Below are positions 16,767 through 30,950 of a stretch of DNA of 64,000 nt, in pieces. The position numbers and the translations under genes were made by a program. Source of the stretch: Fulvia fulva (taxonomy: Eukaryota; Ascomycota; Dothideomycetes; Mycosphaerellales; Mycosphaerellaceae); the NCBI RefSeq assembly GCF_020509005.1, contig NC_063018.1:1798001-1862000 (forward strand). Direction: 5' to 3'. The notes under the pieces are model-generated. The model had not been told where the DNA came from. It searched no databases and saw only the letters and a program-made list of their open reading frames with translations. Position 1 is the first letter of the stretch; every line of letters begins with the position of its first letter.

Positions 16767-17283
16767 ATTGAGAAAACGAATGCGTTATTCAACATGCTGC
16801 TGGCAGCACCATTATGCAAGCAAGAGGAAGTGGACGGAAGGATGTGAGAGAAAAGAGAAGGATGTCTATGTTTTTCGACTCCGGCTAGGGTAATACAGTA
16901 CAATGGCCGAGGTATTCGTTGAGCGTTCGAAGCGGAGCATTGGTGAATGGCGTTAATTGTTTGGCATTTCAGGGATGGGTTGATGGCGGCTCTTTTAGGG
17001 GCTGCCTTTGCATTATATCCGTTTGCGCGCGTGGTGGGGTTGGTAGGGTAGTGGAATGGAGTTGTTCATGGTTTGGCCGTCTCACTTTTTGTCTGGCAGG
17101 TGACCAAAAACGGAGAGGTCTGAGCTTTGCAGCTGACCCCTGGAACCCGTGAGAATTTCCTCGCACGTGCATTCGACCACAAGCACAAGCACAAGCACAT
17201 AGCTTAACGATCCGCACACATCTTCAGCTACGGACCACCAACATCAATTCAACAGCGCCGAAACCACCACGAAACTCGACGAA
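16767..17283. other. Intergenic region: 3' UTR of the antiporter gene and promoter of P1
   Basis: No convincing ORF. Contains a perfect GCACGTGC palindrome (17162-17169) and a CACAAG triplicate (17178-17199), followed by a pyrimidine/adenine-rich leader with an A-rich context before the P1 ATG. These are possible regulatory sites only by resemblance. Confidence 0.55.
17178..17199 (+). repeat. CACAAG x3 short repeat upstream of P1
   Basis: Three perfect CACAAG units plus CACA, about 85 bp before the P1 start codon. Function unknown. Confidence 0.75.
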
Positions 17284-17978
17284 ATGGCTCGTACCAAGCA
17301 GACAGCACGAAAGTCTACAGGAGGCCAGGCACTACCAGTTGTTCGAGCTGCACCACCACCGCCACAAGCATCGCCATCACACTTCGCACCGCCTGCACCA
17401 CAAGCGTTAGGATTTGTGCCGCCAGCCGGGTGGTTCTGACAACCCATAATTCCAGCCTTGCCGGCATCAGTACGAACAGCTCACATGTCTCTAGATTGAC
17501 TGCTGCTAATTCGTGGTAGCGCGCTCGTCGTCCATGTCCTGGCACTGGCCGCCGCCAGCAAGGCCACAGAACTACAGTCGCAGCTCGTGAAGATGACGAT
17601 GACGATGAAGAGCCTGTGGTTATCAAGCGCGAGGATTCCGGAGTGAATCAGCGGGAGGTCATTGACCTCGAAGCAGCCGGCGAGACGCCACCAGGTCAAG
17701 TCGCTGATGAGAAGACCAACGGAAGACCGACGGAGGAAGCGCTCACCACTACGAACGAGATAATGGGGAAGCGCAAGCGGGAGGGCAATGATGAGGGTCA
17801 CGCTGACGATAATGAAAACTACCTGAAGGCGCAGCTCCGCGAGAAGCGCGCAAAGCGCGAGATGAAAGAGGCCGCTCTCGAGGTGAAGGAGGCAGCGTTC
17901 GAGGAGGCTGAGATCGAGCGTAAGATCGCAGCCCTTGAGAAGAAGTCGACATGCAGGGAGAGGGTTTGGAGCACGTGA
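17284..17978 (+). CDS. P1: histone H3 tail-mimic N-terminus joined to acidic SIM/coiled-coil protein (splice model unresolved)
   Basis: The first exon opens M-ARTKQTARKSTGG-Q, identical to histone H3 residues 1-13 (R2, T3, K4, R8, K9, S10, T11 kept) with Gln where H3 has K14. It then becomes Pro/Ala-rich and, unspliced, stops at 17437-17439 (51 aa). A second exon is open from 17520, right after CTAAT..GTGGTAG, to 17978. It holds a D/E run, the sumoylation consensus IKRE (17622-17633), the SIM-like EVIDLE (17655-17672), a KRKRE basic patch, and a coiled coil NYLKAQLREKRAKREMKEA. That tail is clearly paralogous to P2's. The joining intron is uncertain: the strongest acceptor is 17519, and 17455 also has a CTGAC branch. 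Phase-0 donors (17338, 17341, 17416) are weak, while GTACGA at 17470 would make a typical 50-nt intron behind a micro-exon. No histone fold. A nuclear role is inferred. Confidence 0.65.
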
Positions 17979-18299
17979 TGGACCTTGGACACTGAACATT
18001 GGGTTACCACGAGTTGGCGCATTTTGAGTGTATGTCAGCAACCTGGAATGCAACTCTCGGTGCTAATCCTCTCGTTCCTCGGATGGCCTATGGTGGTGTT
18101 GCTGCCCTTCTGGCGTCCAAGTGAAGTGATGACAAGGATCTTCAACGGCTGACAAGGGGACTGGTGGTTACGCGAGGTGCATTCTGGTGAGCTTACATGT
18201 TATGCGAGGAACATTGAAACTCGCGGGTCGAACCTCACCACCTTCAATTCCACCGACGGCTCATGCCACGTATATGACAACACATCAAGAAGCACAATC
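17979..18299. other. P1-P2 intergenic region
   Basis: No convincing gene. An open frame from 18177 runs in frame into the P2 start, but the later ATG at 18300 fits the family better. Confidence 0.5.
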
Positions 18300-19083
18300 A
18301 TGCCAGGCCCGCCAAAGCTCGAAGACCATTCGGTAAGCCATCAACAGGCCGCGCCGCCAGCTGCTGACACCTCAACAGCCCGCATAAAAAGCATACAAAG
18401 CCCTTAGGCGAGCACCGCAGCACCTTCCGCCATTTTCGCTCAATGAGGATGGCGTCCCCAAGGTCCGAAGACGAGAGCTTGTATGTCGCATGCGAGGCGA
18501 CGATGGACAGCCTTGCAGTCGTCGATGCGACAGTGAGCCTCGACTATGGGACCATCTGCATTCCAGCATGCACGGGATTCCGCGAAATTGCCGTCCAATT
18601 CTCGTGAAGAGTGGCTTGAGTCAAGCTGTTACGGTCAAGCTGGACCGCTTCTATGGGAAACTCATGCGGCACGAAGATTATGATGGCAAGGGCATGAGGA
18701 ACGATGGACGTGCTAGCAGGGCCCGCATGGTCGCGCCGAGCATGCCGACACCTAGCGATGATGGAGATCGAGGCCTGGAGGTCGTGGAGAGATCAAACTA
18801 TTATGAGAAGCGTGAGTACATCGAGATCGATTCCTCACCAGAACCAGAGCAGCGCCAGGTCAAAGAGGAGAGCGATAAGGAGACTCCACACGAGGCACGA
18901 CGCTCAATTAATGGTACTGCAGGAAAGCGGATGAGAGGAGAGGCTGTTGAGTTTGAACCTGACGATGACGAAGCGTATTTGATGGCACAGTTGAAGGCAA
19001 AGCGCGCGAAGCGGGAGCTTAAGGAGGCGATGCTGGAGGAAGCCGAGTTTGAGCAGAAGCTGGCTGCACGGAAGAAGCGCTAG
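18300..19083 (+). CDS. P2: C2H2-like finger, SUMO-motif, coiled-coil family protein (possible in-frame TAA)
   Basis: Exon 1 is 18300-18332 (MPGPPKLEDHS), donor GTAAGC. The natural acceptor (CTGAC..CAACAG, 18378; 46-nt intron) aligns with P3-P5, but an in-frame TAA (18385-18387) then follows two codons later. Using 18420 instead gives an 88-nt intron and an open frame to 19083. Exon 2 has KAYKALRR, a finger CRMRGDDGQPC-x12-H-x5-H (about 18484-18570), then FYGKLMRHEDYDGKG, a SIM-like YIEIDSSPEPE (about 18817-18849), the consensus VKEE, and a C-terminal KxKRAKRELKEAMLEEAEF coiled coil. The coiled coil is the closest match to P1. CAA to TAA is the RIP-type change, so this may be a recent pseudogene. 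Function unknown; nuclear SUMO-linked adaptor is an inference. Confidence 0.65.
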
Positions 19084-19499: not shown

Positions 19500-20426
19500 G
19501 AACTGTCCTGGTATCGGCCTCCGCTTCAGGCCGTCGCGCATACCTCGAGCTCAGGAATCGGAATCAGAACTCCAATCTGAGATACGGCGTATGGAACATC
19601 CCAACAACTCTCTACAAGGAGTCGGTAAGTTGCTTTCAAATCTGAACACGATTCATAGCTAATCTCCCAAAGGCTCACTATCGGGCTTACTTCCGCCTAC
19701 AGCGCCTGCCCGGCAACGCTCCGGCGTTTGAGCTTGACGCAGAAGGCTGTGTCATCGTTCAGACTGGAGAATACGTATGTCGCATGAGCTCGCCGGACAA
19801 TGGCTCGCTATGCGGCCACCGATGCTGTGGTAGACAGCACCTTGTCAAACACATCAAGCGGCATCACAAGTCTAGCCCATCCGAGCGTTCACGTGGCGCA
19901 AACACCGCGGTCAGGGGTGAAACCATGGGTATGATACACGAGGCAGTGCAGACATTCCAGAAGCTGACTATAGCATTAGCGTGGTACGTGGACTTCATGC
20001 ACGATGAGGCCATCCAAGAGACTCGTGAACAGCGCCATGACACTGCAAATCTCCCAGAACGGCTTGTAATGGCAGATGAGGAGGCTTGATGACGAAGAAG
20101 ACCTTCTAGCAGCTCAATTGCCGACTCCCGCTGCAGACTACCATCCACCAGCAATCAAATCAGAGGCCAAGCAGCCCGAACGAGAGGTTGTTGATCTCGA
20201 CTCATCTCCGGAGCCCGAAGAGCAAGACATCAAGCCTGGCAGCAATGCGCAAAGTGAGACCAACAGCCAGCAGGCCGGTCTGCTGGATCGCGAGCGTTCG
20301 GAACAGGTGATGCAAGAAGAGTCTTCTGACGAGGATGATATGCAGTTCGAGTTGACACAGCTCAAGCTCCAGATTCGTCAGAACGAGCTTGAACACAGCC
20401 TCCGCAAGAAGCGTGAGACGGGATAA
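19500..20426 (+). pseudogene. P3: paralogue of P2/P4/P5; start not found, frame change near 20075-20089
   Basis: Family alignment fixes two introns: 19625-19672 (GTAAGT..AAAG, phase 0) and 19929-19979 (GTATGA..GCTGAC..TTAG, phase 1). Exon 1 ends IPTTLYKES, exon 2 starts AHYRAYFRLQRLP and carries the finger CRMSSPDNGSLC-x12-H-x3-H (about 19770-19865). Exon 3 starts [A]WYVDFMHDEA. That frame stops at 20087-20089, while the paralogous C-terminus is open one frame over from 20076: IKSE (about 20154-20165), VVDLDSSPEPE (about 20187-20219) and a final coiled coil ending 20426. Either another intron or a one-base indel separates them. No in-frame ATG was found in exon 1 back to the TGA near 19499, so the true start lies in an unseen upstream exon or is lost. 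Confidence 0.6.
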
Positions 20427-20726: not shown

Positions 20727-21794
20727 TCTTTCAGCCCGGGGTACCGTCTATCACATACCTCAAAAGAAGCCAACTTTGCGGTCACTTACCCACAACATGG
20801 CTTATTCCGAGCGTCAAAGTCGCATACAGCTGGCAAAGCCAGAGAGGAAAATGGTGGTCACTCTACTGGCACGTCTGACATACCATTAGGACTCTACGAA
20901 CACAGCGTAAGCAACTTCCCGACCACAACTCTGGCTCCCGTCTGACCCACTCCAGGCTGCCTACAGGGCCTACGTCAAGATACAGCGTCTTACCGCAGAC
21001 GCCCCGAACTTTCAGAACTCTGGCAGTGGCTATCCGATTGTGTACCAGGGAGAGTACATATGTCCGATGCCCGGAACGCTGCCTCAGAAACACTGTGGTG
21101 TTAAGGTCCTTAGAAAGGATTATCTGCATCAGCATTTGCAGACAGCTCACAGACTGGATCCTGATGATCGTCCACTCGACTTCGGCGCGAGAGGAGTGGG
21201 GAGGCAGATATGTCAACAGATGGCACGTGGTGAGTTGCCAGCACATGGCTTGCTTTGTACTTCGCTGACATGGCAGATTTCTACCTGAAGATTATGAAGA
21301 GTGAGGAGTATGAGGGTAAAGAGCAGGCGGAGAGGCAAGTGATCGCTCATGAGCAAGTCACTGTCCACCACGCAGGAACAAGCCGTCCACCAGGAGAGGC
21401 TCAATAGCCAGAACCAGCCCGTCAGCGCAACCCTGCCTGTCACTTACCTACACCCTCTGAGCCAGCCGAAGACTTTCAGTACATACACTCCGTCAAGCAC
21501 GAAGTGTCAGAAGTGCCAGAACCAGCACATCGGCCTCAATCACCGTGGCGAACAGCAGAAGTCGTCGATCTTGTGAGCTCACCAGAGCCCGAGGGTTCCA
21601 TAAAAAGTATCAAGCGAGAGACTGATCTGACACAGTCACCGCTGCAGCATCAAAGAAAACGCAGACGCTGGGGCAAACTTGAGGACCAGGGCAGCGAGGA
21701 TGAAGAGATCGAAGTCGAGCTGAGGAAGACGAAGCTTCAGATGAAGGAGATTGAGTTGGAGAAGAAGTTGCGGAAGAAGAGGAGGCAGGTTTGA
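20727..21794 (+). pseudogene. P4: paralogue with C2H2-like finger, SUMO motifs and coiled coil; single in-frame TAG
   Basis: Exon 1 ends 20906 (..DIPLGLYEHS), followed by a 49-nt intron (GTAAGC..CTGAC..CAG). Exon 2 is 20956-21229 (AAYRAYVKIQRL; finger CPMPGTLPQKHC-x12-H-x4-H, about 21058-21150), then a 47-nt phase-1 intron (GTGAGT..GCTGAC..CAG). Exon 3 is 21277-21794, beginning [D]FYLKIMKSEEYEGKE. TAG at 21405-21407 interrupts exon 3 between AQ and PEPARQ; CAG to TAG would be a single RIP-type change, and the frame continues cleanly afterwards. The rest has VKHE, VVDLVSSPEPEG (about 21562-21597), IKRE, an RKRRR nuclear-localisation-like patch, and a coiled coil ELRKTKLQMKEIELEKKLRK. Exon 1 is open back to TGA 20724 without an ATG, so the start is unresolved. 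Confidence 0.65.
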
Positions 21795-27389: not shown

Positions 27390-30300
27390 TTAGTAAGCCC
27401 CGTCGAAGAGCTCAGATTCGAAGAGCCTGCCGATGTTGACTTCTGGGCCGTCTGCGCGGGCGTGGTATTCTTCGATTGCTTGACGATTGAAGATGATATG
27501 TTGGATAGGTTCCCATGAGGTATCCTACTCAGGGCAACCTTGCCATTCGACTTCATACTTGATCGGCGGTAGTCCTTCAACGTCGTTAGGCTCTGCGCGG
27601 ATTCCCCGGATCTTGCGGACGGCATAGTCGTCAGAAGGTAGGTTAATAGGCTCGTCGACTTCTACTTCATCGGGAGGACCTGGCATGTCTTGGTTTTGGT
27701 TCGGGAATGGGTCCTCAGCCGACGGCCGAAGGCGTACGGGATGGAAGACGTCGTGGATCTTCATGTTCGCAGGAAGAGCTAGACGGTAGGCGTGTGAACT
27801 GATACGCTCGGTGATCTCAAAAGGACCTAGGTTCTTCCAGTTCAGCTTCTTAGAGGGGCGGTCCGTCTTGATGTTCTTAGAGTTGAGGTAGACCATATCG
27901 CCTACTTGGTAGTCGGGAGCTGGCTGGCGACGACGATTGGCTTGATCCTCGTAGATTGCTTGTGCGTACACCATCTCGTCGTGAACTTCTTCATGGATCT
28001 GTGAGAGCATAGTAGCGAACGCGTCTGCTGCTTGCTCGTTTGCGTCTTCGGTAGGCGGGAGAGGTTCTTCTGGTTCCATGCCTGTACGAGGGTGGTAACC
28101 TCTCGTAGTATAGAAGGGAGAGTAGCTAGTAGTCTCCGAGTCCCAGTTACGAGTAGCGAACTCCACCGCAGGGATATGCTGAGGCCAATCCTTCTGGTGG
28201 TAGTCGACGAAGCAACGAAGGACCTGCTCGAGGATAGCGTTCGTAATTTCGGTCTGGCCGTCGGTCTGTGGCTGAAAACTGGTCGAGAGGTTATGCTTGA
28301 TGCCCAGGATAGCACACAGACGCTTCCAGAAGTGCGAGATGAACTGGGTGCCTCTGTCAGAGGTGATGCTATCCGGGAGGCCTTGAAAGCGCCAGACGAA
28401 TTCGTAGAACAAGCGAGCAGTCTCCTTTGCGGTCATGCTCCAGCACGGGATCATGTACCGGTCCTTGGAGTGACGGTCCACGATCACTAGAAGGGCCTTT
28501 GCTTTCACGCCGCTGAAGGTCTTGCCGTGAGGAAGATCGGTGATAAAGTCCATAGTGATGTGCTTCCACGGACGATCAGGAGCCGGGAGAGGGTGCAAGA
28601 GACCGTGGGGACGGTGGCGGTTAGCTTTGGCTCTTCGGCAAGTAGCGCAGTTCAGCACGTAGCGGCGGACGTCCTTCCAGGAATGCGGCCACTAGTAACA
28701 CCTAGCGAGGAGCTTGTGGGTCTTGGCTACGCCTGGGTGACCCCTAGAGGCGGAGTCGTGGATGATTTGAAGAATCTCAGCTCGGATATTAGAGCCTTCG
28801 GGCTGCGGTACGTAAAGCTTCTTACGGAAGTAGACGACACCTTCCTGGAGCTCGCACTCGGACAGCGAGAAGCCCGGGAATGTCCTCGCGCCAGATCCAA
28901 GGGCCTGAACTAACTCTTGGGCGTCTATGTCGGCATCGTACGCTGTTCGTACTCGTGCCATAATGCCTTCGGGCTGCTCCTCATTATCAAACCCCTCAAA
29001 GTCTGATTCGGATGAGCCGTCGGTCGTTACTAAGCCCTCTTCATCGTCGTTCAAGTCCTTAGCGTCCGAGGCGTATTCTTCAGGCTCGGATTCATCGTCA
29101 CTCTCGTCAAGGTAGGCAGGAGCGAGCACGAGAGTAGCAAAGGAAGCGGCGAGCGTAGGCTGGCCGTTCGATAGGTACTCTCGAAGCTCGGAAGAGAGGT
29201 TGTGCTCTTTGATGACTTGTTGCCCTGCGATTTGCCGGCCCCCTCTTCGATCAACTGGAGAGTCACCAGGGCGGCGGGTAAGGGCGTCGGCCATCGAGTT
29301 GGCCTTGCCGGGCGTGTACGAGATCACGAAGTTGAACCGGGAGAGGAACTCGCTCCAGCGGGCCTGGCGACGATTGAGCAGCTTGCTCTTCATAAAGTAG
29401 ACGAGGTTCTTATGGTCGGAGCTTACTTGGACGGGCATAGCAGAGCCTTCGAGCTCGGGGCGCCACTCTTCGAAAGCTTTGACGATGGCGAGAAGCTCCT
29501 TGTCGTAGATCTCGTAGTTACACTCCGTAGCGGTCATCTTCTTGGAGAGGAAGGCGACAGGTAACCAGGGGGATTCAGGCGAGCGGCGTTGTAGCAGGAC
29601 ACCGCCCACCACGCCGTCGGATGCGTCGGTCTCTACACGGGTCTCCAGTTCGAAATCGAAGTGCCGTAGAAGCGGGTTCTTAACAAACTTCGCTTTGAGC
29701 AAGTCAAAAGCCTCCTGGCATTCGTCGGTCCAGGCGAACTTCTCACCCTTGCGCGTGAGCTTCGTCAAAGGGCGTACCACGCCCGAAAATGCGTGGATGA
29801 AGCGGCGGTAGAAGTTGGCAAAGCCTAGGAAACCCTGGACCTCTTTGACGTTCGTAGGAGCATCCCATTCGACGATAGCGTCGATCTTCTCTTGGTCCAT
29901 CTTGATGCCGTCTGCGGTAATGATCAAACCAAGGAACTTGACTTCGGTCTTCTCAAACTCGCACTTGTCGATGTCGAGCTGCAAGCCGGCGTCTGCGAGC
30001 TTCTGAAGGACCTTACAGACGTGCTCGCGGTGCTCCTCCTTGGTCTCGCTGTAGACTAGGATGTCGTCGATGTAGGCAGTACAGAACTGATCGAGGAACT
30101 CCTGAAGGATGTCGTTAATGAAGTTCTGGAAGGTACTAGGCCCGTTACAAACGCCGAAGGGCATAACGAGCGACTCGAACAGCCCGTAGCGAGTACGGAA
30201 GGCTGTGAGATACTCGTGTCCTTCTGCCATTCGTAACTTGTTGAACGCAGCGATGACATCGAGCTTGGTGAAGTACTTGGCCTTAGAGAGGCGCTCGAGC

Positions 30301-30950
30301 GTCTCCTGAATCAACGGTATTGGGTAGCGGTTCTTCTTTGTAACAGCGTTTAAGCCTCGGTAGTCTACGCAGAAGCGTAGACCACCGCCGGGCTTCTTGA
30401 CGAACATGACGGGACTGCCAGCGCTGGAACGGCTCGCTCGAATGAACCCCTTCTTTAGGTTCTCTTCGAGGTATCTCTTGAGGACGATAAGCTCTTCTCG
30501 GGACATGGAATATAACGGTCCGAACGGTGTCTCTGCACCTTCTTCTAGCTCAATCTTGTGGTCGTGAGGGCGATGAGGAGGCAGCTCGTCTGCGGCTTTA
30601 GCATCGAATACGTGGAGGATGTGGTGTGCCCAAGGAGGGACCTTCGTAGCAGGGTCGGTAGGTGTACGCTTCTTGTCGAGCTTCTCGAGGGCGATGTCGA
30701 TATCGCGGAGAGAGGTCGCGAGTTTATAGTCCATAAAAGACTCGCCTAGTGCGCCAGTGTCCATGAGAGTGAGATTGGAAGAAGAGAGTTTCTTTGAGCC
30801 GATATTTACATTCGTGACGAACGGTTTGCAAGCGTGGTCCTTGCCCGTCTCGTCGTACAGGTCTAGCTGTGCTGTATTGATCCTCAACTTCTTTCCTCTC
30901 TTCACTTTCGGTAAACGTTGTTCTTGGTCTTCATCGCGTCGATGAGGAAG
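27390..30950 (-). pseudogene. pol: Chromovirus pol: protease, reverse transcriptase, RNase H, integrase, chromodomain; two premature TAGs
   Basis: The protease box LMDTGALGES lies near 30745-30775. RT carries FVKKPGGGLRFCVDYRGLN and the catalytic AYIDDILVYS near 30055-30090. RNase H has ETDASDGVVGG and YDKELLAIV. The H2C2 integrase finger runs H-x3..H..C-x2-C and is cut by TAG at 28694-28692, between RCY and WPHS. The integrase core shows DFITDLP, TSDRGTQF and the following E region (LEQVL). The GDMVYLNSKN box is followed by a chromodomain IKYEVEWQGCPE-[TAG 27527-27525]-DTSWEP, in which TGG to TAG replaced a conserved Trp. The frame ends at a natural TAA, 27392-27390. Translation likely depended on -1 frameshifting: the pol frame is open across the gag stop, next to GGAAAAAG (about 30961-30954). 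Confidence 0.9.

Follow-up and report, generated by a model that had tools for sequence, protein, structure and literature searches.

The window analyzed here is a 64,000-nucleotide stretch of Fulvia fulva DNA in which an ATG at position 17284 opens the sequence MARTKQTARKSTGG. After the Met, 13 of 13 residues were found to be identical to residues 1 to 13 of histone H3. The frame is closed upstream by a stop codon, and as no Met occurs between that stop and 17284, this ATG is the first start of the frame. The translation of the whole frame is MARTKQTARKSTGGQALPVVRAAPPPPQASPSHFAPPAPQALGFVPPAGWF followed by a stop, with Gln as residue 14 and the match to H3 ending at residue 13. The exact 13-residue match after Met claimed in the original prediction was therefore borne out by the translation. 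The further claim that it exceeds chance also held, since the expectation of ATG plus ARTKQTARKSTGG was 1.5e-10 for the 67.17-Mb genome on both strands under the order-0 base composition of the window, and chance was ruled out as the source of the 13-residue tail on this figure. An assembly error at 17284 was considered unlikely, the assembly comprising 67,169,167 bases in 14 contigs. The consulted part of the published report on the Cladosporium (Fulvia) fulva Race 5 assembly gives 67.17 Mb, 14 chromosomes, and 0 gaps in its table (PMC9453070).

The predicted absence of a histone fold was supported by the Pfam-A search, as no family was found either in the 51-aa open reading frame or in the 171-aa spliced model described below. 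The PDB matches of the 51-aa frame (60 of 135 seen) were H3 peptides or variants together with one Cse4 row, with a best E value of 0.0016. Compared with histone H3 (PF00125), the frame has the tail sequence (positions 1 to 13, with none from 14 on) and lacks the histone fold. It presents an H3-like linear motif in a non-histone reading frame beyond chance expectation, which is the pattern of an H3-tail mimic, the protein itself being a predicted product. The locus had been placed near regions of repeat-induced point mutation (RIP) and heterochromatin, and this was correct to the extent that AT-rich blocks are present on both sides; the gene itself is not inside such a block but within a stretch of 53 to 55% GC (about 14 to 22 kb). 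Long open frames on the minus strand of the window at 27525 to 30905 (48 to 57% GC) resembled a Gypsy-type reverse transcriptase and integrase by eye.

Features of the H3-tailed locus in the window and of the two other non-histone genes with an H3-like start
Feature	Position	Strand	Remark
Met plus exact H3 tail ARTKQTARKSTGG	17284..17325	+	36/42 nt shared with the spliced H3 of this genome
51-aa reading frame: tail, then Pro/Ala-rich part	17284..17439	+	residues 15-51 not coding-like
Candidate intron: donor GTTCGA, acceptor TAG, CTAAT-type branch site 14 nt before the join	17341..17519	+	weak donor; predicted
Downstream coding exon: acidic stretch, SIM-like motif, basic stretches, charged C terminus	17520..17978	+	coding score; 35% identity to C-terminal half of next gene
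VIDLE, SUMO-interaction-like	17658..17672	+	sequence; putative function
KRKR, possible nuclear localization signal	17769..17780	+	sequence; putative
Paralogue 2: apparent start exon MPGPPKLEDHS, Cys/His-containing part, no H3 tail	18300..19083	+	no Pfam family
Paralogue 3: no H3 tail	19591..20426	+	array comparison
Paralogue 4: no H3 tail	20797..21794	+	array comparison
AAA+ ATPase (DUF7025), N terminus MARTKQTARRSTGG (K9R)	start C12:2537917; region C12:2530500-2540400	-	about 69 kb from contig end
BTB protein, MARTMQTARKT (K4M, S10T)	start C11:124171	-	about 124 kb from contig start; tail-less neighbouring paralogue

The downstream exon was clearly coding, the stretch 17520 to 17975 giving a log-likelihood of +49.9 and a GC3 of 64% with the other two forward frames closed. 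An in-frame stop lies directly upstream of this exon, and its first in-frame Met is its codon 82. Since the exon has no start of its own, an upstream start exon is needed, and the ATG at 17284, by eye the closest suitable one, was deduced to be the natural candidate. By comparison, residues 15 to 51 (17326 to 17436) scored -2.5 in frame, against 0.2 for another forward frame and 4.3 and 4.7 for two reverse frames, and had a GC3 of 35% compared with 65% in a reference built from two genes. Exon joins were enumerated and their donors ranked with a simple donor score of our own making, by which no strong splice donor was found within 17284 to 17439. The join 17340/17520 would give a 171-aa model starting MARTKQTARKSTGGQALPV/RARRPC; the other in-frame donors into 17520, at 17338 (170 aa) and 17416 (196 aa), are like it weak. 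The donor at 17341 was preferred because most of the noncoding-like stretch is then left out. A donor at 17406 (GTTAGG) was rejected because a join from there to 17520 would not keep the frame of the coding exon. The original prediction that 17284 to 17439 is a first exon joined to 17520 is thus plausible as to the join and correct as to the coding nature of the downstream exon, but the donor is poor and residues 15 to 51 are not coding-like. The acidic stretch of the exon is accompanied by VIDLE, which we take to be a SUMO-interaction-like motif.

When the 171-aa model was used as a protein query, four rows were obtained at E values up to 10: P0016, two histones, and a protein of 126 aa that begins like H3. 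The sole strong match was P0016 (111 aa), from which exon 1 is absent, and within the 94- to 299-aa range covered by this search no annotated protein bearing the tail of the window gene was returned. The downstream frame is also present on two other contigs (the longest of 10,628 bases; P0016), which likewise speaks against a misassembly, but the P0016 protein is without the tail. Database protein P0018, from another organism, likewise has an H3-tail start followed by unrecognized sequence.

The downstream exon belongs to a tandem array of four members, of which the first extends from 17284 to 17978. The H3 tail is confined to this first member (1/4); paralogues 2 to 4 apparently have short start exons of their own and a Cys/His-containing part. 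All four share the SUMO-interaction-like motif, in the versions IEIDSSPE, VVDLDSSPE, and VVDLVSSPE in the paralogues, together with a charged C terminus. No Pfam family was found in the two paralogues tested, one of them in part, and a search of the genome for a second copy of 17100 to 18100 found none.

The origin of the tail was addressed by comparison with the F. fulva H3 gene on contig C9. In a search of the genome with the H3 protein (E values up to 0.001, blind to tail-only matches), this locus and a relative of 60 to 64% identity on C6 were the only matches. The C9 gene has an intron inside codon 8, while the window copy reads through codon 8 without one, this first intron position being the only one that can be judged. 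The source of the window tail is therefore deduced to have been intronless, that is, a transcript, a retrocopy, or a transposon-borne H3. Capture of the 5' end of an H3 gene, originally proposed as the simplest origin, is not supported in that form, and capture of the genomic 5' end with its intron was ruled out. Read in frame, the eight bases that open H3 intron 1, GTAAGTCA, complete R8 and then specify K9 and S10. Translation of an H3 transcript left unspliced would thus still give ARTKQTARKS, but not TGG, before departing from the H3 sequence.

The nucleotide identity of the tail to the genome's own H3 given in the table has a P value of 0.10 under codon usage alone, and 7 of 13 codons are shared overall (5.1 expected by usage; P = 0.18). 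Within the first seven codons, six are shared (P = 0.012, with the split chosen after the data were seen), and Ala at window position 15 also agrees with H3. As codon sharing is high early but ordinary overall, descent from this H3 gene is considered likely rather than proven. The six nucleotide differences from H3 are all at third positions and silent (6/6). For free drift after departure from this H3, the probability of a silent-only pattern is about 0.007, a value that presupposes this gene as donor, and it falls to 0.0005 if all of the changes occurred on the copy. This silent-only divergence is the main evidence suggesting that the window tail was kept for its protein sequence. Immediately past residue 13, identity between the window DNA and H3 drops to 8 of 21 nt. 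Borrowing of the tail from the ATPase gene described below is unlikely, as the window and ATPase tails are identical at 28 of 42 nt compared with 36 of 42 for window and H3.

A 33-base pattern allowing up to three mismatches was found at four places in the whole genome (the window, the H3 gene, C12, and C11), three with no mismatch at the four pattern places and one with a single mismatch; the control gave 0. Two further non-histone genes with an H3-like start were thereby recognized, an AAA+ ATPase on C12 and a BTB protein on C11. The ATPase is 693 aa by our own splicing, and the annotated protein (P0002, 691 aa) contains DUF7025 and AAA by Pfam. The BTB protein has 299 aa, and over this full length of 299 residues its match to a Fulvia fulva protein is 100%. 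The tail was not found in BTB relatives in a whole-protein search with three hits, these being the protein itself, the tail-less neighbouring paralogue, and a tail-less Lophiostoma BTB protein.

Weaker tail-like starts were located at nine places at up to three mismatches (controls 1 and 1), at six places with a pattern for the first six codons (0.85 ARTKQ starts expected by chance), and at six places in a further search for weak starts (controls 0 and 1). The weak starts beyond the four were judged from their translations (seven read) to be due to chance or undecided. On the minus strand at C9:3447465, about 40 kb from the H3 gene, a frame starting MARTKQLKRNVSPEL has an in-frame stop upstream, a basic stretch, and F-box-like and 2EXR matches below the cut-off; only its ARTKQ equals H3, which could be chance.

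Relatives of the ATPase were sought with the first 60 residues of the F. fulva protein, tail included, which gave 14 proteins at E values up to 10 among 32 candidates. Of these, 11 (P0002 to P0012) were AAA+ ATPases; because the query region included the tail, this set leans toward tail keepers, and tail-less orthologues were possibly missed. The eight named sources comprise F. fulva, Septoria linicola, Cercospora kikuchii, C. zeina, Zasmidium cellare (two), Friedmanniomyces simplex, and Acrodontium crateriforme, and both Mycosphaerellaceae (Fulvia, Zasmidium) and Teratosphaeriaceae (Friedmanniomyces, Acrodontium) are represented within Mycosphaerellales. Several of the relatives are annotated, P0003 under the name "Putative histone H3/CENP-A, AAA+ ATPase domain." Identity to H3 residues 1 to 13 ranged from 8 to 13 in 11 of 11 sequences (12, 13, 13, 13, 12, 8, 12, 12, 12, 11, and 9 from P0002 to P0012). 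In this tail-biased set, mean pairwise identity was 0.84 over A1 to T11, 0.20 over the next 40 columns, and 0.62 over the rest. In P0004 and P0005, 21 of the first 22 H3 residues are kept, and the ATPase tail was therefore deduced to descend from H3; the comparison suggests that its first 11 to 13 residues were kept while the remaining H3-derived part decayed. Individual sites vary, K4 being replaced by L in P0008 and by I in P0007 and K9 being lost (R9) in F. fulva's own ATPase. The P0009 model starts with MPSYMARTKQ, and if this model is correct, the end of the tail would be masked.

These data strengthen the initial mimic reading, as a near-identical tail is carried by an unrelated AAA+ ATPase and kept in its relatives. 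H3-tail mimicry on the ATPase appears well supported by these comparisons, and much better than for the window gene; for this reason the finding is of interest whatever the fate of the latter. The same alignment bears on Gln14, which had been interpreted as a mimic of acetyl-lysine at the K14 position. That interpretation found no support, since the H3 similarity ends at residue 13 and residue 14 varies across the 11 AAA+ sequences (R in five, K in two, M in two, L in one, G in one), and Gln14 is more likely to reflect drift. Three other database proteins, returned at E values of 6 to 9, also start like H3: P0013 continues as a SET protein, P0014 (Podospora comata) as an F-box protein, and P0015 (from the alga Edaphochlamys) as a BTB protein. 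All three are database models and may include misjoined genes.

A free ARTKQTARKS end is bound by H3 writers and readers, and removal of the initiator Met is expected where Ala is at position 2. The statement that H3K9 methylation operates in RIP/heterochromatin regions agrees with what the genome encodes, namely one Pre-SET/SET protein with DIM-5 as its best PDB match (E = 1.1e-50) and one chromo-shadow match, in a frame containing one stop. Four SWIRM matches were also present. The window gene is proposed, tentatively and as a reading that may well prove right, to be a histone-mimic gene, an H3-tailed member of the four-gene tandem family with a tail most likely from an intronless H3. In such a gene, the tail would occupy the place of the Cys/His-containing N-terminal part of the other array members, and Met removal would leave a free N-terminal ARTKQTARKSTGG. 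The protein could be brought to the nucleus by its remaining part, with the acidic stretch, SUMO-interaction-like motif, basic stretches, and charged C terminus, and there the tail might serve as a substrate of a DIM-5/Clr4-type K9 methyltransferase, as a ligand of HP1 or K4-site readers, or as both. A K9-methylated tail might then be bound by HP1, or the tail might occupy K4-site readers, and the protein would recruit or titrate these chromatin factors, either mode being compatible with the data. For the window gene, we infer from its sequence how the exons join, that the gene is expressed, that Met is removed, and that the protein is nuclear, modified, and active in recruiting or titrating.

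A quite possible alternative is that the locus is dead, a piece of intronless H3 having come to lie upstream of a truncated paralogue; the ATG and its 51-aa frame would then be relics from which no product with the tail arises. The low GC3 and noncoding character of residues 15 to 51, the weak splice donors, the failure of the search in the 94- to 299-aa range to return an annotated protein, and the single-copy state of the region are all consistent with this, as are the hAT-carried intronless H3 copies documented in Mycosphaerellaceae in the consulted part of PMC6710886. Against it stand the divergence from H3 that is silent only (6/6; P about 0.007), the downstream coding exon with no other visible start, and the kept stretch (1 to 13), of about the same extent as the one kept among the ATPases. 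For the window gene, the balance between a functional mimic of recent origin and a dead fragment is close. It is improbable that the frame encodes a stand-alone, intronless 51-aa microprotein in which the tail and Pro/Ala-rich end form a free, soluble H3-tail decoy: the frame has its own stop at 17437 to 17439 and no strong donor interrupts it, but residues 15 to 51 score as noncoding and the exon at 17520 would be left without a start. Very improbable is convergence, with a tail that arose de novo under selection rather than from H3, since the ordinary overall codon sharing and nucleotide identity (P = 0.18 and 0.10) and the possibly convergent BTB tail are opposed by the six of seven shared first codons, the Ala at position 15, and P0004 and P0005, whose H3 residues point to descent at least in the ATPase family.

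The histone-mimic reading of the window gene can be compared with known systems. In the consulted part of PMC8034647, the VRTK N terminus of PAF15 is bound by the UHRF1 PHD finger. PAF15 is likewise a non-histone protein with an N terminus copying that of H3, and it binds an H3 reader, but VRTK comprises 4 residues compared with 13 exact ones in the window tail. Short H3K9-like motifs of the ARKS type are methylated by EHMT1/2 in non-histone targets that include WIZ and LIG1 (PMC10611923, consulted part). The likeness lies in a K9-like site on non-histone proteins, written there by H3K9 methyltransferases, but these are short motifs searched as 10-residue segments, while the window has a whole N-terminal tail with K4 and K9 sites.

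A third comparison concerns mobile H3 sequences. According to the part of PMC6710886 consulted, a hAT transposon of Pseudocercospora fijiensis acquired an intronless H3, and H3-like repeats occur in five more Mycosphaerellaceae genomes, with hAT-borne H3 copies in Pseudocercospora, Cercospora, and Sphaerulina. The extra H3 copies in these six genomes carry RIP stop codons, and 94% of those in P. fijiensis match exon 3 only (PMC6710886, same part). The H3L copies in Pyrenophora tritici-repentis are mostly whole (PMC3538342, consulted part). H3 sequence has thus been moved within Dothideomycetes genomes, intronless as stated for P. fijiensis, but the window has the tail alone, leading another protein. 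As in hAT transduplication, the H3 sequence of the window lacks the source-gene intron at the first intron position, and by analogy a hAT-borne intronless H3 is a possible source of the tail. A further likeness is to the Mycosphaerellales AAA+ ATPases, in which the same tail starts a non-histone protein within the same order, differing in the unrelated body (DUF7025 and AAA in P0002) and in having relatives in two families.

No earlier account of a full H3-tail N terminus on non-histone proteins was found among the papers listed, at the level of titles and abstract openings. In the parts of the literature consulted, mimics copy short motifs (VRTK, ARKS), and a 13-residue H3 N terminus is longer. 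The sequences suggest that such tails may serve as docking or methylation sites on non-histone proteins. It is also possible, if somewhat doubtful, that Mycosphaerellales use the free H3 N terminus, in an ARTKQTARKS-like form, as a portable tag on unrelated proteins under selection, by which H3 writers, erasers, and readers would regulate or recruit them; this would cover the AAA+ ATPase (in at least two families), the BTB protein, and the window protein. Were this true, the change of K4 to a hydrophobic residue, which is M in the BTB protein and L or I in some relatives of the ATPase, would set K9-type recognition apart from the K4 type. These fungi would then possess natural decoys or substrates modeled on the H3 tail, present more than once in a single genome and preserved in a conserved ATPase. 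Such tails would offer a direct test of which H3 writers and readers work on the tail away from nucleosomes, in fungi whose genomes are shaped in large part by RIP.
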